Of a stretch of 64,000 nt of DNA, positions 4,938 through 62,553 are shown one piece after another (position 1 is the stretch's first letter; each line of letters starts with the position of its first letter). The translations under genes were made by a program, and so were the position numbers. Origin of the DNA: Spirulinaceae cyanobacterium SM2_1_0 (GTDB lineage: Bacteria; Cyanobacteriota; Cyanobacteriia; Cyanobacteriales; Spirulinaceae); assembly GCA_012031265.1 (NCBI GenBank), contig JAAUTY010000001.1, positions 1 through 64,000 of the forward strand, in the 5' to 3' direction. Below the pieces are notes generated by a model. The model worked only from the letters and a program-made list of their open reading frames with translations. It had not been told where the DNA came from and ran no database searches.

Positions 4938-5954
4938 ATGGACATCAGCACTACCTACTTGGGTTTGGACTTGCGATCGCCCCTCATTCCCTCCGCCGCT
5001 GCCCCGCTTTCGGAGAACATCGACACCATCAAACAACTTGAAGATGCCGGCGCGGCAGCAATCGTTCTGCACAGTGTTTTTGAGGAGCAGCTCAAACAGG
5101 AGCAATACGAACTCGAACATCACTTGAGCTACGGCACTGAGAGTTTTGCGGAAGCACTCACCTATTTTCCTGAACCCGAAACCTTCCATGTTGGCCCGGA
5201 AGTGTACTTAGACCATATTCGGGAGGCGAAGCAAGCCATCGATATTCCCGTCATTGCCAGTTTGAATGGCTCGTCACTAGGCGGTTGGACTCATTTTGCC
5301 AAGCTGATCCAGGAGGCGGGTGCGGATGCCTTGGAGCTGAATATTTACAGCATCCCCACCGACATGCACAAGACGAGCGCCCAGGTCGAACAAGACTATT
5401 TGGATATTGCAACGGCGGTGCGATCTGAAGTCACCATTCCCGTTGCGCTCAAGCTCAGCCCCTTCTTCTCGAATATGGCCTATATGGCGAAACGTCTCGA
5501 TGATTTAGGGATCAATGGCTTGGTGCTCTTCAACCGTTTCTATCAGCCCGATATTGATTTGGAAGAGCTGATCGTGCGGCCGAATATTTTGCTTAGCTCG
5601 GCCCAGGATATGCGCCTGCCTATGCGTTGGATTGCGATTTTGTACGGTCGCATCAATGCCGATCTGGCGTCAACCAGCGGCGTCATGCACGGCCGCGATG
5701 TCGTGAAGATGCTGATGTCGGGGGCGAAAGCAACGCAGGTTTGTTCAGCATTGCTGCGGCACGGTATCCCCTATTTGCAAACGCTGGAAGCCGAGCTGAA
5801 ACACTGGATGGAGGAGCATGAATACGAGTCGGTACAGTTGATGCAGGGCAGCATGAGCCAGATCAATTGCCCCGATGAAAGCTCGTTCGAGCGGGTGCAG
5901 TACATGAAAGGTATTCAGTCTTACCAGCCCGAATCGTTTGCCTTTGCACCCTAG
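4938..5954 (+). CDS. Dihydroorotate dehydrogenase-like flavoprotein
   Basis: A 338-residue TIM-barrel protein of the dihydroorotate dehydrogenase family. It begins MDISTTYLGLDLRSPLIPSA, the family's opening strand. FMN-site elements include ASLNGSSLGGW, ALELNIYSIP and VALKLSPFFSN. I chose the ATG at 4938 over the TTG three codons upstream. This subfamily, found beside nifJ in many cyanobacteria, is distinct from the housekeeping PyrD, so its substrate is not certain; the neighbourhood suggests a role linked to NifJ electron flow. The gap from nifJ is 93 bases and contains a stem-loop, so cotranscription is likely. The DHOD fold is confident; the reaction is not. Confidence 0.85.
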   Translation: MDISTTYLGLDLRSPLIPSAAAPLSENIDTIKQLEDAGAAAIVLHSVFEEQLKQEQYELEHHLSYGTESFAEALTYFPEPETFHVGPEVYLDHIREAKQAIDIPVIASLNGSSLGGWTHFAKLIQEAGADALELNIYSIPTDMHKTSAQVEQDYLDIATAVRSEVTIPVALKLSPFFSNMAYMAKRLDDLGINGLVLFNRFYQPDIDLEELIVRPNILLSSAQDMRLPMRWIAILYGRINADLASTSGVMHGRDVVKMLMSGAKATQVCSALLRHGIPYLQTLEAELKHWMEEHEYESVQLMQGSMSQINCPDESSFERVQYMKGIQSYQPESFAFAP

Positions 5955-11850: not shown

Positions 11851-12165
11851 TCATAATCCTACTGATTCTATTGTTAGGATTTGGACACTCTGCGGGGGTG
11901 ATGACTCTCGCCTTGCGGCTGTGATCCCGATCGGAGATCGACGCGATCGCGCGTCAGAAGTTGCCACCCCGTTAAAAAAAGTTATTGACTGTCGCTAACG
12001 CTGCGCCTGAAGCCAGGAGGAACGGCGGTTTGGCGGGTGAGGAAACCTAAGACTCACCAACCGTCGGCTGTTTTCGGCACAATTTGAGATGGCAGTGGCG
12101 AACCATCCTGATGGTGTGGTCGTCTCCAGAAAATCAGTGGCAGCTTTTGCATGGAGGAATGGCTT
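11851..12165. other. Divergent intergenic region
   Basis: About 315 bases separating the PAS kinase (-) from the lipoprotein (+), so it should carry both promoters. I see no convincing -35/-10 pair. The only clear signal is a GGAGG eight bases before the lipoprotein ATG. Confidence 0.4.
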
Positions 12166-12612
12166 ATGGTTCAGATCGGGGTCTACCGGCTGGCACTCAC
12201 TAGTCTCGGGCTGGTGCTTTGGCTCAGTGCTTGTGCTGGGCTGCCCTTGGCGAGTCCGGCGATTGACGATGCGCTCCCCGCCCCACCTATCGAGCTGGTC
12301 GAGGCGGCGTCTCGCTCAGCACCGGTGACGGTCGAAGCGGTGCGGGTGAATGTTTTGGAATCACAGCCTCTGCAACTGGTTCTCGAAATCGACGGCTACA
12401 TTCCCGATGGCTGCCAGGTGCCGGTGACCGTGAGCCAGACACGGGTGGGCAATCAAGTCAGTGTCGCACTGGCGCGTGAGTTGCCGGTTGATACGTTGTG
12501 CCCGGCGGTTGTCCAGCCCTATACGCAGCAACTCCGCCTCGATGGCGGTTTTGCACCCGGCACGTACCAGATCGAAGTTAATGGCTTGACGCTTGCGCAA
12601 GTCTTGCCCTAG
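12166..12612 (+). CDS. Putative lipoprotein, unknown function
   Basis: A 148-residue protein with an N-terminal hydrophobic signal ending in a lipobox (LSAC, about residues 18-21), so it is probably lipid-anchored after export. The mature part is mostly beta-strand-like, with VRVNVLESQPLQLVLEIDGY and three cysteines, and resembles a small beta-sandwich. I chose the ATG at 12166 over 12151 because a GGAGG lies eight bases upstream. Its TAG stop codon (12610-12612) is part of the CTAG end of a small repeat element. I recognise no family. Confidence 0.7.
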   Translation: MVQIGVYRLALTSLGLVLWLSACAGLPLASPAIDDALPAPPIELVEAASRSAPVTVEAVRVNVLESQPLQLVLEIDGYIPDGCQVPVTVSQTRVGNQVSVALARELPVDTLCPAVVQPYTQQLRLDGGFAPGTYQIEVNGLTLAQVLP

Positions 12613-12719
12613 TACAGGACGGCGGAAATGAGATGCCCATTCAAAATCCCCAAGATTCCCGTATTGCAGGCACTCAGAACTCAAAACTCAGAACTCAAAA
12701 TTCCGCGTAGCGGTACTAG
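12609..12719 (+). mobile_element. CTAG-bounded MITE-like element, copy 1
   Basis: A 111-bp element starting CTAGTACAGGACGGCGGAA and ending TTCCGCGTAGCGGTACTAG. The ends are imperfect inverted repeats (14 of 19 positions, including the outer CTAGTAC/GTACTAG). The interior has a direct repeat based on CTCAAAACTCAGAACTCAAA. The sequence is identical over all 111 bases to the copy at 55242-55352. The left CTAG supplies the TAG stop of the lipoprotein gene. The right end lies nine bases from the fmt stop codon, so the element fills the convergent gap. There is no coding capacity; any mobility would need a transposase in trans. Confidence 0.85.
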
Positions 12720-12727
12720 CGGGTCGG

Positions 12728-13723
12728 CTAGCCCCACTGGCTGCCGACGGCGAGGCGTAGCCCGTTGACCAGATCCCAGCCGGATTGGGGACGCTTGCCC
12801 GCCGGCTGGGCTTGTTGGATGAGCAGTAAGCCATTGCCGGTTTGCATGACCGGGCCGAGGTTTTTCAGGATGGCAGTGATGGTGCCGGGAGTTTCGGCAT
12901 GACCGAGGCGATCGCGCCAAGGGGCGATCGCCTCGCCCAGGTCAGCCGGGAGTTGCGATGCAAGTTCAGCCGCCAGCGGCACCGTGGCTAAAATTTTCAC
13001 CGGCTTGTCTTGGAAAGAGGTAGTGCAGTTGGGATAAAAGGCGCGGATTTGATTGTGCAGCGCCAGCGCCGCTCGCTGCCAGTCGAGGGCGTAGTCGCTC
13101 TTGGTGATCAGGCGCGCGTAGCTCGCCTGCGGGTCATCCTGCGGTCGGGGTTGGAGTTGACCGGTCGCAAGCTGTTGCAGAGTAGTCGGAAAGAGAGCCG
13201 CACTCATTTGCGCCAAATCATGGGTGAGCTGCTCGGCATTGTCAAGCAGGCCCAAGGGGCGGCGACGCTCGAGCAGCATCGGCCCAGTGTCGAGATCGGC
13301 ATCCATCTGCATCATCGTCACCCCGGTTTCAGCCTCGCCGTAGTATAAGCTCCACTGGATCGGGGCCGCGCCGCGATAGGCAGGGAGCAATGAGGCATGA
13401 GCATTGACGCACCCCAGACGCGGCATGGCGAGGATTTCCGAGGATAAAATTTGACCGTAGGCGATGACGGCGAAGGCGTCAGCCTCGGACTGAGCGAGGG
13501 CAGCGAGGCTGGCGGCATCTTTCTTGAGGCGGCGGGGCTGCCAGACAGGGAGAGCGGCGGTCAGAGCGAGCGCCTTAACTGGTGAGGGCTGCAAGCGCTT
13601 GCCTCGCCCACGCGGCTTGTCGGGCTGGGTGACGACGCCAACGACTTCAAAGTCCGGATGCGCGAGCAAGGCCTGGAGGCTAGGAACTGCGTATTGGGGG
13701 GTGCCGAAGAAGACGATTTTCAC
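12728..13723 (-). CDS. fmt: Methionyl-tRNA formyltransferase
   Basis: Transfers a formyl group from 10-formyltetrahydrofolate to Met-tRNA(fMet) for translation initiation. The 331-residue protein starts VKIVFFGTPQYAVPSLQAL, the conserved first strand of the family. The catalytic region includes NAHASLLPAYRGAAPIQW (SLLPxYRGAAP signature) and ETGVTMMQMDADLDTGPML. The C-terminal OB-like domain follows, from about residue 205. I chose the GTG at 13723 because the homologous region begins there; the ATG nine codons upstream would add an unconserved leader. The stop codon lies just beyond MITE copy 1. Confidence 0.95.
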   Translation of the reverse strand: MKIVFFGTPQYAVPSLQALLAHPDFEVVGVVTQPDKPRGRGKRLQPSPVKALALTAALPVWQPRRLKKDAASLAALAQSEADAFAVIAYGQILSSEILAMPRLGCVNAHASLLPAYRGAAPIQWSLYYGEAETGVTMMQMDADLDTGPMLLERRRPLGLLDNAEQLTHDLAQMSAALFPTTLQQLATGQLQPRPQDDPQASYARLITKSDYALDWQRAALALHNQIRAFYPNCTTSFQDKPVKILATVPLAAELASQLPADLGEAIAPWRDRLGHAETPGTITAILKNLGPVMQTGNGLLLIQQAQPAGKRPQSGWDLVNGLRLAVGSQWG

Positions 13724-13932: not shown

Positions 13933-14883
13933 ATGTCCTACGATTTGACCATTGCCATTCCCACTTTCAACGGGGCCGCACGCCTGCCCCGCTTGTTGGC
14001 GTGCCTGCGTGCTCAAGTTGACACAGACAAGCTGAACTGGGAAATTATCATCGTCGATAACAATAGCACCGATAATACGGCTGACGTAATTCGCGAATAT
14101 CAGCAGGATTGGCCCACAGACGTACCGCTTCATTACAGCTTTGAGCCTCGCCAAGGTGCGGCGTTTGCCCGTATCCGCGCTGTTGAAGAGGCAAGGGGTC
14201 AGCTCGTTGGTTTTTTGGATGACGACAATCTTCCGAATGAACGCTGGGTTGCCGCAGCCTGTGATTTTGCCGACCAACATCCCCAGGCAGGAGCGATTGG
14301 TAGCCAGATTCATCCCGAATACGAGGTGCCACCGCCCGAAAACTTTGAGCGTATCGCCTCCTTTCTCGCAATTGTTGAGCGTGGCGAGCAATCGCAATTG
14401 TATCAGCCTGCGATGAAGATGCTGCCTCCATCTGCCGGTTTGGTCGTTCGGCGCGAAGCCTGGCAGCGCCATGCGCCTAATCCACCCTTCTTGCAGGGTC
14501 GCTCAGGCAAAACAATTCTCAATAGCGAGGATTTGGAATCAATTCTCCACATTCAGAATGCGGGTTGGCAAGTTTGGTATAACCCAGCGATGGAGATCTA
14601 TCATGTGATCCCCCGCAACCGTCTAACACGCGACTACTTGCTCTACATTGTGCGGAGTACCGGCTTAGCAAGACACTACATCCGTAGCTTACGTTGGCGA
14701 CCGTGGCAACGACCATTCTTAGCCCCGGCCGGTTGGCTCAGAGATGTCAGTCGGGCAGCTATTTACTTTTTACAGCATCACCAAGAATTGGATAGTGATA
14801 CAGTCACCGCCTGTGAAATGGAATTTCTCAAAAGCAGTGTTCTGAGTCCGTTCTATCTCTGGAGGAAGTATTCGGGATTATGA
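13933..14883 (+). CDS. hpsE: HpsE-like family 2 glycosyltransferase (first copy)
   Basis: A 316-residue GT-A glycosyltransferase that would add a sugar to a lipid-linked or growing surface polysaccharide at the cytoplasmic membrane face. It starts YDLTIAIPTFNGAARLPRLL, has VDNNSTDNT for nucleotide-sugar binding, QGAAFARIRAV, and the metal-binding LDDDN. The WYNPAMEIYHVIPRNRLTRD block recurs in its neighbour. This layout matches HpsE of hormogonium polysaccharide loci, and hpsA, hpsB and hpsC lie on the other strand downstream. It overlaps the next gene by four bases (ATGA), so the two are translationally coupled. The ATG at 13933 is preferred over the upstream alternative start. Donor sugar unknown. 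Confidence 0.8.
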   Translation: MSYDLTIAIPTFNGAARLPRLLACLRAQVDTDKLNWEIIIVDNNSTDNTADVIREYQQDWPTDVPLHYSFEPRQGAAFARIRAVEEARGQLVGFLDDDNLPNERWVAAACDFADQHPQAGAIGSQIHPEYEVPPPENFERIASFLAIVERGEQSQLYQPAMKMLPPSAGLVVRREAWQRHAPNPPFLQGRSGKTILNSEDLESILHIQNAGWQVWYNPAMEIYHVIPRNRLTRDYLLYIVRSTGLARHYIRSLRWRPWQRPFLAPAGWLRDVSRAAIYFLQHHQELDSDTVTACEMEFLKSSVLSPFYLWRKYSGL

Positions 14884-15902
14884 CAGACTTCAGCGTTGTA
14901 ATTCCTACCTACAATGGCGAAAAACATTTACCAGAAATCTTAGAACGGCTGCGATCGCAGGTTGAGACTGAAGGGTTTTCTTGGGAGATCCTCGTAGTCG
15001 ATAACAACAGCAGCGATCGCACACCCGAGATTATCCGCCAAGCTCAGACCAATTGGCATGGTCGAGGTTCACTGCGATATGTGGTCGAAACTCAACAAGG
15101 TGCGGCTTTTGCTCGCCAGCGCGGTGTAGAGGAAGCGACAGGGGCATGGGTTGGTTGCCTGGACGACGATAACTTACCCGCACAAGACTGGGTAGCCCGT
15201 GCCTACGAATTTTCTCAAAGCCGACCGCAAATGGGGGCATTTGGCGGTCGCATTCACGCAGATTTTGAAGTCGAGCCACCCGCGAATTTCGAGAAAATCA
15301 TCGGTTTTTTGGCCATTCGAGAGCGTGGCGATCATCCCAGTCCTTACAAGCCCGAAGTTCTCAGTCTGCCGCCTGGAGCCGCCATGGTAGTCCGACGCCA
15401 AGCCTGGCTTGATCATGTTCCAGCTCAGCCGAGCCTTGGTGGCAAAATCATTGGTGGTTCAATGGTACAAGGCGATGATTGGGAGCCACTACTCCATATG
15501 TACAAAGCTGGCTGGAAAATTTGGTACAGCCCAGATTTACATACTCATCATCAGATTCCTGCCTGGCGATTGGAACGTGAATATCTCCTAAGGCTAATTC
15601 ATGGTTCTTGTTTAGCCTTTTGTCCCCTGCGGATGATCGTCGCTGAGCCACTACAGCGGCCCCTGATTATGGCACGCACTGTACTTGGTAATACTTATAG
15701 AGCGCTCAGCTACTGGTTACGCCATCGCACCAGCATTCGCCATGACACAGTTGCGGCTTGCGAACTGCAAATTTATCTTAGTCGGATTGCCAGTGTTTTT
15801 TATTTCTTGAAGGGTCGCTGGCAAGGGAAATTTCAATTTACCCCGCCGGTTGAGCGGGCCAAAGCAGCTGCCGTCCACTCTTCAAAAGCATCACAAGAAT
15901 AA
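14880..15902 (+). CDS. hpsE: HpsE-like family 2 glycosyltransferase (second copy)
   Basis: A 340-residue paralogue of the preceding gene with the same motif order: DFSVVIPTYNGEKHLPEILE, VDNNSSDRTPEII, QQGAAFARQRGVEEATGAWV, LDDDNLPAQDW, and a matching block IWYSPDLHTHHQIPAWRLER. A C-terminal extension of about 25 residues is not seen in the first copy. The start codon overlaps the previous stop. The 3' end overlaps the oppositely directed glycosyltransferase by 65 bases. A tandem duplication followed by divergence is the simplest origin; the two may make successive linkages. Confidence 0.8.
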   Translation: MTDFSVVIPTYNGEKHLPEILERLRSQVETEGFSWEILVVDNNSSDRTPEIIRQAQTNWHGRGSLRYVVETQQGAAFARQRGVEEATGAWVGCLDDDNLPAQDWVARAYEFSQSRPQMGAFGGRIHADFEVEPPANFEKIIGFLAIRERGDHPSPYKPEVLSLPPGAAMVVRRQAWLDHVPAQPSLGGKIIGGSMVQGDDWEPLLHMYKAGWKIWYSPDLHTHHQIPAWRLEREYLLRLIHGSCLAFCPLRMIVAEPLQRPLIMARTVLGNTYRALSYWLRHRTSIRHDTVAACELQIYLSRIASVFYFLKGRWQGKFQFTPPVERAKAAAVHSSKASQE

Positions 15903-16767
15903 ACTTTAGTTCCCGAATAGTTTCTGGTTCGTAGCGAGCGTACTGAATAATATAGTGAATAGCTGCCCAACTGCTTGCGCGCGAGGGCGGGCTACCTAGA
16001 GCTTTCCAAGCTAAGTACTTGTAGAGATTGGCGGTACTACGTCCTCGTAGGGCCTGAAATTCGGCGGGCAGTCGTTCAAAAGCCCGATTCAGCACACGTT
16101 GACATTGATTGGCTTGTAGAGCCAAGTTGGCGGAGCTTGACGTTGATGATAGCCGATAGAGAATCTGTGGTTTGGGAACGGCTGCGAAAGGATAGTGGTC
16201 AGCCAATCGTAGCCAGTAATCCCAATCCTCGGCGGGCGGCAGCGAGGCTTCAAATTCGCCGGTTGCCTCGATAGCGCTACGACGAACTAACGGATTCGAG
16301 CCATTCTCAATGAAATTGTTGGCTAAAAGTGCGGCCCGAGCATCGCCATTGATGGTCTGATGCCGTCCGGCTTGTACGAAGCGATCGCCCTCATCGATGT
16401 AATCTGTCCAGCTATAGGCTAGACCCGCTTCTGGGTATGCCTGTAGAGCGGCTAATTGATCAGCCAATTTATCGGCTGTCCAGAGATCATCAGCGTCTAA
16501 GAAAGCGAAAAAATCACCCTGTGCGTGCCTGATACCACGATTGCGGCTCGTCGCTTGGCGGGCGTTGGGATAAGAGTAGAGCTGAATGCGAGGATCGGTA
16601 ATGCTAGCAACGGCTTCGACCGTGCGATCGCGTGACCCGTCATTAATGACAATAATTTCAAAGTCAGTAAATGTCTGTGCCAGTACCGAGTTAATAGTGG
16701 CGCTAATGGTTCGCTCGCCGTTGTAAACCGGAATAATGATTGAGATTACGGGCCTAGTGGTTGTCAT
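15838..16767 (-). CDS. Family 2 glycosyltransferase of the hps locus
   Basis: A 309-residue GT-A enzyme: VISIIIPVYNGERTISATIN, VINDGSRDRTVE, the loop ATSRNRGIRHAQGDFFAFLDADD carrying the DxD-like LDADD, and a downstream acceptor region with ENGSNPLVRRSA and LPPAEDWDYWLRLAD. It is the last gene on the minus strand of the hps block, separated from the pseudopilins by MITE copy 2 and about 270 noncoding bases. It probably corresponds to an HpsF- or HpsG-type transferase, but I cannot decide which. Its last 65 bases are antisense to the end of the second hpsE-like gene. Confidence 0.85.
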   Translation of the reverse strand: MTTTRPVISIIIPVYNGERTISATINSVLAQTFTDFEIIVINDGSRDRTVEAVASITDPRIQLYSYPNARQATSRNRGIRHAQGDFFAFLDADDLWTADKLADQLAALQAYPEAGLAYSWTDYIDEGDRFVQAGRHQTINGDARAALLANNFIENGSNPLVRRSAIEATGEFEASLPPAEDWDYWLRLADHYPFAAVPKPQILYRLSSTSSSANLALQANQCQRVLNRAFERLPAEFQALRGRSTANLYKYLAWKALGSPPSRASSWAAIHYIIQYARYEPETIRELKFILVMLLKSGRQLLWPAQPAG

Positions 16768-17037: not shown

Positions 17038-17148
17038 CTAGTACCGCTACGCGGAATTTTGAGTTCTGAGTTTTGAGTGATGAGTGCAGACAATACAGGC
17101 ATCCTACGGATCCTGAATGGGCATCGCATTGCCGCTGCCTTGTACTAG
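17038..17148 (-). mobile_element. CTAG-bounded MITE-like element, copy 2
   Basis: An 111-bp copy in inverted orientation relative to copy 1. The inner 40 bases next to the GTACTAG end are identical to copy 1; the other half is diverged at scattered positions. The CTAG at 17145-17148 supplies the TAG stop codon of the upstream minus-strand pseudopilin. It lies between this pseudopilin and the next glycosyltransferase on the same strand. Confidence 0.85.
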
Positions 17149-17801
17149 TAACAATAGTAATCGCTGCTGTTGGGAGTGCTATGCTCTTGCCCGGCACGCG
17201 TGGCACCCGTGAGTGTTGAGACAATGACACAACGGCGGTAGCGCGGTGAGGTTGGATCGTGATCTCTGAGACGGAGTGTAATGCGACCGAGGGCCCAAAG
17301 GGAGGTTTGGCCGCAGTCATCGCTAGAATTGTAGACCGGACAGCCGAAAAAGTTAATCCGAACACGCCAGATAGTTTGACCATCCACCACTTGGCTACGC
17401 ACCGAGGTTTCAACCTTGTTGCGGTCATTGGTTGCCAGATCGAGCACCACACCAGCCTCAATATCCTGCCAAAGGGCGGCGTTATTGAGGACAGCCGCTG
17501 GAATGAATACGTTGCCCTCGGAATGGTCAGCCGGATGAATCGCCCATTGCAGCTGAGCGTCCTGCTGTCTCAAACTCAATTGCCAGGTGAGTTTGTCACG
17601 AGTTGCATTGCTGCGAACCCGACGCAGGGCAGTATGAAGTTCGCCGCGAGCAGCATTGAGTTTCTGACGATTGAGGAAATCGAGCCAGGTTGGTAGGGCG
17701 ATCGCCGCTAGCAGACCAATGATCACAATGACAACAACAAGCTCAATCAGCGTGAACCCTGACTGAGAGCGAGGCAACCGCTGGCCAAACATAGGATGCA
17801 C
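17145..17801 (-). CDS. GspH/FimT-like pseudopilin (second of two)
   Basis: A 218-residue minor pilin-like protein. The prepilin peptidase site is SQSGFTLIELVVVIVIIGLL: cleavage after Gly leaves Phe+1 and Glu+5, followed by the hydrophobic assembly helix. LNAARGELHTALRRVRSNAT matches the GspH/FimT N-terminal helix. The C-terminal globular part has a cysteine pair. It follows the other pseudopilin after 70 bases in the hpsA-B-C operon direction. The extreme C terminus (SSDYYCY) ends at a TAG contributed by MITE copy 2, so the last residues may be affected by that insertion. Probably a minor subunit of the Hps secretion pseudopilus. Confidence 0.85.
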   Translation of the reverse strand: MHPMFGQRLPRSQSGFTLIELVVVIVIIGLLAAIALPTWLDFLNRQKLNAARGELHTALRRVRSNATRDKLTWQLSLRQQDAQLQWAIHPADHSEGNVFIPAAVLNNAALWQDIEAGVVLDLATNDRNKVETSVRSQVVDGQTIWRVRINFFGCPVYNSSDDCGQTSLWALGRITLRLRDHDPTSPRYRRCVIVSTLTGATRAGQEHSTPNSSDYYCY

Positions 17802-53900: not shown

Positions 53901-55030
53901 GAGAGGTAGGCCAACTCGCCCTGCGCGTCGCGGTGCGCCATGACCACTTGTGACACCGGGATTTCTTCACCCGTGGCAGACAAGACCGCTGTTTCACCCT
54001 GCCAGGAGCCGTGTTGCAGGGCGTGGGGAATGGCTTCGCCTTGGATGCGATCCAGGGCCCAGCGCGGATGCAATTGCTCGGCGGCGAGGTCTGAGAGGGC
54101 GCGATCGCCAATCCCCAATAATTCACGACCGGCGCGGTTGAAGTAGAGGATGTTACCGTTGACTTCGCAAGTGCTGACCAGATCGCTGGTCGCTTCCAGG
54201 ATGGCGACTAGGCGAGCTTGTTCCTGTTCGCTACGACGGCGCTCGGTGATGTTTTGTCCAACGGCGAGGCCGCCCATCACCTGATCGAACTCGTCGCGGA
54301 TCGGTACGCAGTTGATCGAGTAGAGGCGATCGCCCAGGACAAACTCGGCCTCAATGGGCTGACCTTGTAAGGCCTGCTGGTAGATGGCTACCAGTTCCGT
54401 CGCCGCTGCTGTAGGCAAGATGTCGTGGGGCGTTTTGCCCTCGAGCTGGGACTTCGACATTCCCAGAACGGCCAATTCTGACTCGCCATCGACTAGGGTG
54501 TAGCGACAGTCACGATCAAACATCAAAACGACGCCGTTGGGGAAGTTGCGGGCAAGGGCATGGTAAAGCTGCTCGTTGCGATACCGTTGTTCTTCGGCTT
54601 GCTTGCGATCGCTAATGTCGAGAAAGATGCCATCCCAAACAATGCTGCCGTCCGCTTGGCGCTCAGGCTGGGCAATCCCCGAGACCCACTTGAGCTGACC
54701 CGATGGTGTCACAATTCGCCACTCCACCTGCCAACGGGTGAGTTGTTGGGCCGATTGTGCCAGTGTCTCAGTCAGTTTATCCAAGTCTTCAGGATGCAAG
54801 CATTTCCAGAGCAACTCGGCATTCCGCATCACGGCTGCTGGCTCAAGTTCGTAGATCTCGCGCAGATTATCACTGACGTAGGTGAATGCATCGCTGCCAT
54901 CGGGGCGCAGCACGTAGCTGTAGATCGTGCCCGGAATGTTGGCGACCAGTTTGCGAAAACGCTGCGCGTCTGCCACTGTGGCAGTCCGTGCTGAGAAGTG
55001 ACCCGCTGATGAGGTTGGGGAAGAAGCCAT
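50924..55030 (-). CDS. Giant sensor histidine kinase, seven PAS plus GAF
   Basis: A 1368-residue soluble kinase. Seven successive PAS domains occupy about residues 25-900, each ending in a (D/E)IxxRxxAE-type linker (for example TVDITERKQAEQ). One GAF domain follows at about 900-1080, then a coiled coil, the phosphoacceptor block SSLGQLVAGVAHEINNPVNF, and an HATPase with FINLIGNAIDAI and GKGTGLGLSISYQIV. PAS 3 and PAS 6 share a long similar stretch (LLGI... PxAIxHGxWxGET), pointing to internal duplication. No transmembrane helices, so the inputs are cytoplasmic. Same kinase subfamily as the gene at 10.4-11.9 kb. No adjacent response regulator. Confidence 0.93.
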   Translation of the reverse strand: MASSPTSSAGHFSARTATVADAQRFRKLVANIPGTIYSYVLRPDGSDAFTYVSDNLREIYELEPAAVMRNAELLWKCLHPEDLDKLTETLAQSAQQLTRWQVEWRIVTPSGQLKWVSGIAQPERQADGSIVWDGIFLDISDRKQAEEQRYRNEQLYHALARNFPNGVVLMFDRDCRYTLVDGESELAVLGMSKSQLEGKTPHDILPTAAATELVAIYQQALQGQPIEAEFVLGDRLYSINCVPIRDEFDQVMGGLAVGQNITERRRSEQEQARLVAILEATSDLVSTCEVNGNILYFNRAGRELLGIGDRALSDLAAEQLHPRWALDRIQGEAIPHALQHGSWQGETAVLSATGEEIPVSQVVMAHRDAQGELAYLSTVIRDLRERQRVETELRQTTERLQEAQRIAHLGHWELDAATQAMTWSPEMFRIFGLDPQQGTPTMEEHAAQIYPEDREHHQRAFTSLLTGRPTEVEFRIVQPSGDRRYLNVRAEAVLGLDGRHVRYVGTTVDITERKQAEQTLQDNAELFRAIFDQAAIGLCYVEPDASISRVNGKLCEILGYSEAELLQQNFQDITHPDDQAIDWTYFERIFAGEMSRFVVEKRYRHADGHWVWANVSVSVVRANTGEPRFFIGAIEDISDRRAAEQRARELLAILEAAPDFIGSATLEGYMTYLNPIGHQLLGIDPDANLDQLQLVQLHPPTSVELLTQTGIPSAIAHGTWLGETELLRPDGSTIPVSQAIIAHYDESGAAQYISTIVRDIAANKQAERQLREQTILLRAVLDSIPQAVFWKDRAGIYLGCNQRFARDAGYRHSAELVGRDDRELPWHKEAAEHYRKHDRRVMELGRGSINVEEPITLADGRRGWLQTSKVPLTNADSEIIGVLGVYDDITERKAIEEDLRDRVEREALFNRLTNQIRNSLDVETIIDTAVHALRDLLEIDRANISWYHDAEPEAYWETTKESKREDLPSLLGRYPTSEVGSLTEVVLRGETVRIDEVTSCPEPIMQQFLLSLGYTSFLTVPLVTGGGRCGVWGAGHCTGARPWTDTEIELVETIANQMAIALNQADLYEQAQAKTRELEAAYRELQETQTQLIQSEKMSSLGQLVAGVAHEINNPVNFIYGNIGHANEYLADLIDLLEQYNTAYPDPTPEIVEAIDAIDLDFLLSDLPKLFESMRFGADRIKEIVKSLRTFSRLDEADMKAIDLHENLDSTLMILQSRLKAKPERPAVQVIKNYGQLPKIDCYAGQLNQVFINLIGNAIDAIDEQNKRRAADEIAAEPGTITIGTAAVGDRVHIRIKDNGTGIPANKLNRIFDPFYTTKAVGKGTGLGLSISYQIVTENHRGRLDCQSELGRGTEFVIEIPQCQPEMT

Positions 55031-55241
55031 GAGGAGATGCGGAGAATAGCCAAGCGGTGACGGTCTCTCAAATTATATTGTGAAGCCACGGATGCTGTCA
55101 GACGCGGAATTACGGGAAAGTGGGTTAGCACCGGCATAAATTGCGCCCAAAGCTGCTCAGCACTGAGTGAGTCTGCCCAAAGGGGTCTGAGGCCCTGCCG
55201 GGTTATGGGCCGCTGTGGAATGCCCCAATCTTGCCGGGTGG

Positions 55242-55352
55242 CTAGTACAGGACGGCGGAAATGAGATGCCCATTCAAAATCCCCAAGATTCCCGTATTGC
55301 AGGCACTCAGAACTCAAAACTCAGAACTCAAAATTCCGCGTAGCGGTACTAG
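55242..55352 (+). mobile_element. CTAG-bounded MITE-like element, copy 3
   Basis: This 111-bp copy is identical to copy 1 at 12609-12719, so one moved recently or they are being homogenised. The right CTAG (55349-55352) supplies the TAG stop of ruvA, which approaches from the opposite side to the gene at copy 1. It lies between ruvA and the giant kinase gene, both on the minus strand. Confidence 0.88.
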
Positions 55353-55975
55353 CGACTCAGCCAGGTGATCGCCCCGCGAATCCACTCTTCGGCCTGGGGG
55401 TTTTTGAGCAGTTGTAGATCACTGCTGAGCGCGGATAGGGCTTGTTCGATCTCGTCTTTTGTATAGCCTAGCGCGAGTAACGTCACCTCGACATCTTCCT
55501 GAAGCTCTGGCGACGGGGCGGCTCCTAGGGTGGCGACAGTGATGCCGACTTCGTGCCGCCACTGCGAGAGTTTGGTCTTCAGTTCGAGGGCGATGCGCTC
55601 GGCGGTCTTTTTGCCGACGCCAGCGGGTTTCGAGAGGGTGCGGATGTCGCTCTTGACAACGGCGCGCACGAGGAGTTCGAGGCCGAGGGTATCGATGGCG
55701 GCGATCGCCATTTGGGCACCGACGCCACTGACCGTCAGCAGATGGCGAAACAGATCGCGTTCGGCAGCCGTGCTGAAACCATAGAGGACGGGCTGATCGT
55801 CGCGCACGAGCTGATGCGTGAAGATTTGCACCCCCTCGCCGAGCGTGAAGCGGCGCGCCAGACTGGTGGGGATCTGGATCTCGTAGCCAATGCCGCTGAC
55901 CTCGAGGATCAGCAGCGTGCGTCCCGCCAGCGTCCGCACGACTTCGATGGCTTGACCCTTGAGATAGTTAATCAT
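55349..55975 (-). CDS. ruvA: Holliday junction branch migration protein RuvA
   Basis: Binds Holliday junctions and loads RuvB for branch migration. The 208 residues show the OB fold start INYLKGQAIEVVRTLAGRTL, helix-hairpin-helix regions (LLTVSGVGAQMAIAAIDTLG and LSKPAGVGKKTAERIALELK) and the C-terminal RuvB-binding helices (TLLALGYTKDEIEQALSAL). Normal length. Its TAG stop lies in the CTAG end of MITE copy 3. ATG at 55975. Confidence 0.96.
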   Translation of the reverse strand: MINYLKGQAIEVVRTLAGRTLLILEVSGIGYEIQIPTSLARRFTLGEGVQIFTHQLVRDDQPVLYGFSTAAERDLFRHLLTVSGVGAQMAIAAIDTLGLELLVRAVVKSDIRTLSKPAGVGKKTAERIALELKTKLSQWRHEVGITVATLGAAPSPELQEDVEVTLLALGYTKDEIEQALSALSSDLQLLKNPQAEEWIRGAITWLSR

Positions 55976-61621: not shown

Positions 61622-61734
61622 CTAGTAGCGCTACGCGGAAGTCAGAAGGTAGAAGTCAGAAGGTAGAAGGCTTTGGTTTTCAAGGCTTTCAGTCGCTTCA
61701 AATGGTGTCCTTAATTTCCGTCTCTGTGTACTAG
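61622..61734 (-). mobile_element. Divergent CTAG-bounded element, copy 5
   Basis: It begins CTAGTAGCGCTACGCGGAA (18 of 19 positions as in the other copies) and ends TGTGTACTAG at 61734. Next to that end, on the minus strand, CTAGTACA...GGAAAT and a CACCATT stretch resemble the CTAGTACA end of copies 1-4. The interior differs, with an AGTCAGAAGGTAGA direct repeat. Its right CTAG is shared with copy 4. Confidence 0.65.
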
Positions 61735-61827
61735 TACCGCTACGCGGAATTTTGAGTGATGAGTGCAGACAATACAGGCATCCTACGGCTCCTGAATGGG
61801 CATCTCATTTCTGCCGCCTTGTACTAG
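61731..61827 (-). mobile_element. CTAG-bounded MITE-like element, copy 4
   Basis: A 97-bp copy closest to copy 2, but lacking 14 bases of the internal CTCAAAACTCAGAA repeat. The CTAG at 61824-61827 directly abuts the TGA stop codon (61828-61830) of the minus-strand gene. The other CTAG (61731-61734) is shared with copy 5, as if one element had inserted into the end of the other. Confidence 0.85.
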
Positions 61828-62553
61828 TCAGTCATCAAAGCGGCTGCGGATCTGCACCAGGCTCTCGGCGAGTTGGACCAGCCGCTGTTCAAGCACTGAT
61901 TTGCGTTCGAGCAACTGACGGAGTTTCTGATACCGGGCGATCGCCATACTTACTCCTGGCACTTGATCCGGTGGGCAGGACTTCGACCAGACGCGGCCGT
62001 CGGCATCAAAACCGCAGAGCCGGTAGCCGGTGCGCGCTGCCAGCTCCGAGTTGTACTGCTTGGCGATGTGGGCGACGAGCTGGGGATCGGTAGATTGCGG
62101 CTGCGATTCGAGCCAGCCTTCGACAATCGGTCCTTCGAGGTAGATGCCCTGAATATCGAGCAGCACCTGCTTGAGATCTTGCTGCCAGCGGCTGGCTGTG
62201 GCGTGCATTTCAGTCAGTAAGCCGGTGACGAGGGTGGGATTGATGCTGTGGCGGTGGCGGCTGAAGCGGAGCGGCTGGCGGGGGGCGGCGATCAAGCTCG
62301 GTGGCGGGGTTTGGCGGGTAGTCCGCTGGGGGGCTAGCGACGGCGCTTGTGGCAACCGGGAGCGCGGCATCAGGCTGGACGCAACTGGTGGGGTGGGAAT
62401 GCGCGAGGCCGCAGGATATTCGCGGCTCGGCAGCACCGACTGCCGGGCTGCGACGGCAGGCCGGTTTCCCATCGCGTCTAGGTGCTGGAGGGCGATCACA
62501 ATCTGTTGCAGCTTCGATTTCACGGTGGTTTCTCGCCTTGCGGCCAAGCCCAT
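61828..62553 (-). CDS. Conserved cyanobacterial protein, unknown function
   Basis: A 241-residue protein: a short N-terminal segment (KSKLQQIVIALQHL), a Pro/Ser/Arg-rich linker (about residues 35-95), and a C-terminal globular part with LLTEMHATASRWQQDLKQVL, IVEGWLESQ, and GFDADGRVWSKSCPPDQVPG, ending in a coiled coil. It looks like a structural or regulatory protein; no enzymatic motif. A GTG nine codons after the ATG (62523) is a plausible alternative start. Its TGA stop touches MITE copy 4. Confidence 0.65.
   Translation of the reverse strand: MGLAARRETTVKSKLQQIVIALQHLDAMGNRPAVAARQSVLPSREYPAASRIPTPPVASSLMPRSRLPQAPSLAPQRTTRQTPPPSLIAAPRQPLRFSRHRHSINPTLVTGLLTEMHATASRWQQDLKQVLLDIQGIYLEGPIVEGWLESQPQSTDPQLVAHIAKQYNSELAARTGYRLCGFDADGRVWSKSCPPDQVPGVSMAIARYQKLRQLLERKSVLEQRLVQLAESLVQIRSRFDD

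Follow-up and report, generated by a model that had tools for sequence, protein, structure and literature searches.

The window, by which we mean the whole 64,000-nucleotide stretch of DNA analysed here, carries four copies of a short element bounded by CTAG, each lying at the 3' end of a gene (Table 1). The stop codons at these boundaries were read directly, three as TAG within a terminal CTAG and one as TGA adjoining it, and the coincidence of element ends with gene stops pointed out by the first-pass annotation is real at all four places. A Pfam search (E 0.001) identified the gene at copy 3 as RuvA and found an N-methylation motif of the pseudopilin type in the gene at copy 2, with no match for the ORFs ending at copies 1 and 4. 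At copy 3 the insertion site is the ruvA stop itself. A convergent formyltransferase gene also ends on a CTAG stop (12728-12731), which lies 9 bp beyond the right CTAG of copy 1 and is empty. Sampled DNA of the two genomes considered below holds just two relatives, both partial, of the different CTAG-bounded stretch next to copy 4 (CTAGTAGCGCTACGCGGAAG...GTGTACTAG). The octamer GCGATCGC, a cyanobacterial mark, is present in many repeats of the window and, with the Snowella RuvA match described below, suggests that the DNA is cyanobacterial.

Table 1. CTAG-bounded elements of the window and the gene stops at their ends
Feature	Position	Strand	Length and structure	Gene stop at the element end
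MITE copy 1	12609..12719	+	111 bp, CTAG to CTAG	TAG of ORF 12151-12612 (+), provided by left CTAG 12609-12612
MITE copy 2	17038..17148	-	111 bp	TAG of ORF 17145-17801 (-), provided by CTAG 17145-17148
MITE copy 3	55242..55352	+	111 bp, same sequence as copy 1	TAG of ruvA 55349..55975 (-), inside CTAG 55349-55352
MITE copy 4	61731..61827	-	97 bp, two heptads shorter	TGA of ORF 61828-62553 (-) (TCA at 61828-61830), adjoining CTAG 61824-61827
Different CTAG-bounded stretch	61622..61734	+	113 bp, back to back with copy 4, CTAG 61731-61734 common to both	

A MITE-like element bounded by CTAG

The element is a MITE-like, non-coding transposon, usually 111 bp in length and bounded by CTAG. Its B end reads CTAGTACCGCTACGCGGAA and its A end approximately CTAGTACARGRCGGCGGAA, giving terminal inverted repeats that are perfect over CTAGTAC and continue imperfectly to about 19 bp. 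Searching for both end types with up to two mismatches returned 523 matches, compared with 11 for a reversed control pattern, and exact CTAG-bounded B ends number 131 (84 + 47), spread over many contigs. After 19 partial hits had been left out of 155 merged element hits there remained 136 full copies, of which 99 are 111 bp, 23 are 104 bp, nine are 97 bp, two are 118 bp and three have other lengths; length varies in steps of one internal heptad (97, 104, 111 and 118 bp). A search that varied the first base found only three B ends with NTAN that begin with a base other than C, compared with the 131 with CTAG, and A ends, on which the sampling was not conditioned, carry CTAG in 129 of the 136 full copies.

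A family-level search gave matches in three of 13 genomes, the window's genome included. G007, which belongs to another genus, has at least 42 among the matches listed (of 127 candidates, 40 were scored), which show 69-77% identity and mostly the same boundaries; of the 45 hits in its stretches, 36 are bounded by CTAG on both sides. G006 has one short match, and the plasmid records searched for the element had none. The viral contig IMGVR_UViG_3300002922_000001 carries an exact B end (L211 361-379, - strand), but the interior next to it is a different one. The MITE-like family is real and cleanly bounded.

Evidence for transposition into CTAG comes from empty sites, for which flanks were joined across the element and compared with the sampled DNA, and seven of the filled sites that had a possible paralogous empty site were then read. 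Three of the seven (L052, L121, L130) have a paralogous empty copy with a single clean CTAG where the filled site reads CTAG-element-CTAG; L052 and L121 are both located within copies of a single further repeat and may not be independent. The empty copy of L061 also shows a single CTAG, one flank matching more weakly; that of L043 aligns without gaps but reads CCAG, and the alignments of L136 and L138 are uninformative on the empty site. Another GTA-CTAG end immediately precedes five of the 131 B ends, as would be the case if the CTAGs at element ends could serve as targets in turn. Duplication of TA (2 bp) and of CTAG (4 bp) would leave the same junctions, the targets being nearly always CTAG. 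The ends and the empty sites bear out the proposal of the first-pass annotation that this is a CTAG-targeting element, and its further point that insertion rebuilds the TAG holds as well.

No transposase with matching ends was found among the matches to PF13358 in the window's genome and G007, or to PF01609 and PF13546 in the window's genome. More specifically, none of the DDE_3 matches (four in the window's genome and five in G007) is framed by the MITE ends, and neither the one PF01609 match below the cut-off nor the one PF13546 match in the window's genome has MITE-type ends on both sides. Since no full-size element with the same ends was found, the element is filed as MITE-like; many described MITEs have no known parent. 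L204 was the one lead to a partner transposase and was rejected, since its MITE copy (1204-1314) is of the ordinary kind and the IS982-like remnant next to it scores under the PF01609 cut-off; within L204 1204-1776 a second CTAGTAC end (1311) comes directly after the copy, and with it the IS982-like transposase fragment on the - strand. L141 holds at 1219-2039 a decayed IS630-type element of the window's genome, with a MITE copy nearby at about 749-859. Like the MITE, this IS630-type element has CTAG at both ends, but those ends (CTAGTGCTCAGTCAAG / CTAGTGTTCAGTCAAG) differ from the MITE ends (CTAGTACCGCTACGCGG / CTAGTACARGRCGGCGG).

Several known systems resemble the element in target or structure. 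The IS5 and IS701 families use 4-bp CWAG and YTAR targets, CTAG included, and are in this respect like the present element. IS630 itself reportedly targets TA in CTAG, a finding said to go back to Tenzen and Ohtsubo in 1991. For ISY100, of the IS630 / Tc1-mariner family, targeting of TA within CTAG is described in the excerpted account (PMC2170065). MITEPsy1 of Pseudomonas syringae is, according to the excerpted paper, a 100-bp non-autonomous element with imperfect terminal repeats and a duplicated 4-nt target, CTAG (or YTAA), for which ISPsy2 is the suggested source (PMC3189936). It is like the present element in being short and non-autonomous, in its imperfect terminal repeats and in inserting at and duplicating CTAG, whereas its terminal repeat sequence differs and no stop-codon pattern is seen for it in that excerpt (PMC3189936). 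Among the literature titles and abstract openings listed, none mentions that an element targeting CTAG is biased towards stop codons.

Element sites relative to genes and their stops

The first-pass annotation had attributed the position of the copies to the rarity of CTAG in coding sequence, which is false here. The window has 141 CTAGs where dinucleotide frequencies predict 140.9, with a density of 1.70 per kb in called genes and 3.58 between genes, and these figures rule out rarity in genes as the explanation. TAG accounts for 230 of 575 called stops, and the base preceding these 230, filled sites included, is C in 106 (46%), T in 70, G in 43 and A in 11.

Creation of the stops by truncation was likewise considered and rejected. 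Insertion at a CTAG within a gene (two frames seen) would read on into the element, from which it follows by sequence logic that an exact TAG must already have been the stop, and RuvA relatives agree in length to within 0-3 residues. The RuvA of the window ends in ...AITWLSR; of 12 family relatives, seven end at the same residue and five are one to three residues longer, their ruvA stops being TAA in five, TAG in four and TGA in three, and none of the 12 has an element end in the 40 nt past ruvA. Scanning genome contigs for RuvA gave five relatives, the best of them from Snowella (59% identical). From these sequence comparisons, the ruvA copy most likely went into a CTAG stop that was already there, with which the loss of up to three residues would still be compatible.

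Full copies were excised in silico to one CTAG, and genes were called with a 3-periodic Markov caller of our own making, for which the sample served as training set and which marks 73-79% of the window's-genome sample as coding. Elements were sampled by their exact B end, independent of position, and control CTAGs were drawn from the same stretches and the window, leaving out 15 that were element-like. The 135 element sites comprise 32 exact TAG stops, 101 intergenic sites and two genic ones, which lie at the 3' tips of their genes, 26 nt and 4 nt short of the end, compared with 58, 523 and 820 of 1,401 empty CTAGs. Varying the calling thresholds gave 28-38 stop, 90-105 intergenic and 2-7 genic element sites in the window's genome. 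G007, with two of its 45 hits left out for not covering model positions 3-108, has eight to nine stops among 42 element sites and none in genes. The idea that the element is tolerated mainly at stops therefore stands in one half, genic copies being almost absent, but not in the other, as about three-quarters of the copies are intergenic.

The same classes qualify the original four out of four, which holds in the window but not beyond it, where about one site in four is an exact stop. Finding at least three exact stops in four has p ~0.045 at the sampled rate of ~24% (32/135) and p 0.004 if the rate is instead set to 10%, the proportion of stops among empty CTAGs outside genes; the four coincidences are a lucky local sample of a pattern that is present beyond the window. 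The annotation had named a lack of stop excess over CTAG sites as the result that would count against it, and an excess over empty intergenic CTAGs does exist (odds ratio ~2.8). Over the thresholds it was 2.6-2.9 (p 4e-5 to 4e-4) in the window's genome and 2.5-3.1 (p 0.035-0.086) in G007, values pushed up by missed genes, which enlarge the empty intergenic class: of ten window genes used as a check, two go uncalled at thresholds 14 and 8 (15838-16767 and 14880-15902, each with a glycosyltransferase match in Pfam). The within-gap test and the short-gap cut described below are less exposed to this effect.

The main contrast in occupancy is between the 3' side and the 5' side of genes, and it is found in both genomes (Table 2). 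With stops set aside and a gap limit of 600, filled sites amount to 39/155 on the 3' side and 24/196 on the 5' side in the window's genome (p 0.002), and to 17/42 and 5/44 in G007 (p 0.003).

Table 2. Filled CTAGs among all CTAGs by position relative to genes (window's genome, gaps <=600 bp; CTAGs lacking a called gene on both sides or lying over the gap limit were left out)
Side	Distance	Window's genome	G007
3'	stop	32/84	7/16
3'	1-15 nt	7/25	7/10
3'	16-50 nt	17/61	6/12
3'	51-150 nt	11/52	3/18
3'	>150 nt	4/17	1/2
5'	0-50 nt	8/77	2/20
5'	51-150 nt	12/95	2/20
5'	>150 nt	4/24	1/4

Target choice, survival and a possible RNA role

We consider it probable that CTAG targeting combined with selection against harmful insertions, rather than targeting of stop codons or a role at mRNA 3' ends, explains this pattern. 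A putative transposase would join the ends of the non-autonomous MITE to target DNA within CTAG, with the central TA as the most likely point of joining, so that each junction reads CTAG; we infer both the family of this enzyme and the position of its cut. Selection would eliminate insertions within genes, sparing those at the very 3' tip, and the survivors would be found at CTAGs between genes or at CTAGs containing a TAG stop, where insertion would rebuild C-TAG and leave the protein unchanged. Upstream of genes survivors would be scarcer still, and they would be mildly enriched where a gene 3' end is no more than ~50 nt away. Target and survival filters of this kind would yield the stop-codon coincidence, with no need for recognition of stop codons, and it would be selection and not insertion preference that lies behind the genic depletion and the 3'-side bias. 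Against this reading count the negative outcome of the transposase search described above, a residual excess of stops over other CTAGs in some cuts of the data, and the single orientation of elements at G007 stops, which targeting plus selection does not predict; the last two are taken up below.

It appears improbable that stop codons are themselves the target, or that selection favours them over and above their position as 3' sites. Besides the excess over empty intergenic CTAGs in the window's genome, this idea can call on the comparison of stops with other 3'-side CTAGs there, which gives odds ratios of 1.8 (p 0.04) at a gap limit of 600 and 2.1 (p 0.008) at 5000, and on same-direction gene pairs (2.4, p 0.03, limit 600); convergent pairs give 2.8 (p 0.015) at 5000 and 1.9 (p 0.18) at 600. 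At a limit of 300, however, the 3'-side comparison falls to 1.56 (p 0.23), and stops compared with CTAGs 1-50 nt past the stop give 1.59 (p 0.19) in the window's genome, 0.54 (p 0.51) in G007 and 1.28 (p 0.48) pooled. Reshuffling elements among the CTAGs of their own gap gave 35 stops seen against 32.1 expected in the window's genome (p 0.14; 0.13 and 0.15 at other thresholds), where only 24 of 128 gaps are informative and a modest stop effect could go unseen, and 8 against 7.4 in G007 (p 0.46). The excess at stops thus exists but is not stop-specific, since it shrinks against 3'-side CTAGs, against those at 1-50 nt and under own-gap reshuffling. It is possible, if on the doubtful side, that the transposase or the state of the target DNA favours the 0-50 nt downstream of genes, stop included, for instance as transcription-termination zones, so that the 3' bias would reflect insertion preference and not only survival. 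Own-gap reshuffling points this way, with 62 elements in the 0-50 nt zone against 56.7 expected in the window's genome (p 0.05; 0.056 and 0.058 at other thresholds) and 26 against 21.6 in G007 (p 0.008), and there may indeed be a mild preference for sequence immediately downstream of genes. Occupancy at 1-50 nt also exceeds that at 51-150 nt in G007 (13/22 vs 3/18, p 0.01) and in a Mantel-Haenszel comparison over both genomes (odds ratio 2.1, p 0.045), but in the window's genome alone the odds ratio is 1.4 (p 0.42), and unannotated features farther out, acted on by selection, would mimic the pattern. A wider version, in which the transposon truly prefers to insert into the 0-50 nt at and just past gene ends, by way of termination or DNA state, and stop CTAGs thereby become a safe landing place across genera, seems to us rather doubtful.

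The first-pass annotation had offered selection for use as an mRNA 3' end as its alternative. Retention of the element as a former of mRNA 3' ends, whether terminator or RNA-stability element, is very improbable, and finds little support in orientation or folding. It would account for the 3' bias of the copies, the element ends are able to pair as a 7-bp stem, and all eight gene-element pairs at G007 stops have the same orientation (A end facing the gene in 0, B end in 8). At stops in the window's genome, however, the two ends face the gene equally often (A 18, B 18), and at 1-60 nt the counts are A 23 and B 10 there and A 8 and B 13 in G007, leaving no orientation at gene ends common to both genomes. 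Folding of one copy, that at ruvA, gave weak z-scores of -1.95 and -1.28, and the consensus fold of 24 chosen and aligned copies reached -7.5 kcal/mol with changes on both sides in one of 14 pairs, that is, almost no covariation. Rfam had no match at 55000-55500, which spans the ruvA copy. The stem is moreover formed by the transposon ends and the target site, which is enough to explain the conservation of its bases.

On the favoured reading of CTAG targeting with selection, a strict 4-base target and selection together can mimic the targeting of stop codons. With CTAG sites by the hundred in each state, filled or empty, across two genomes, it is also a countable case for telling insertion preference from survival. 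For annotation, it means that gene ends in such genomes may fall exactly on the boundary of a repeat and yet be unaltered by it.
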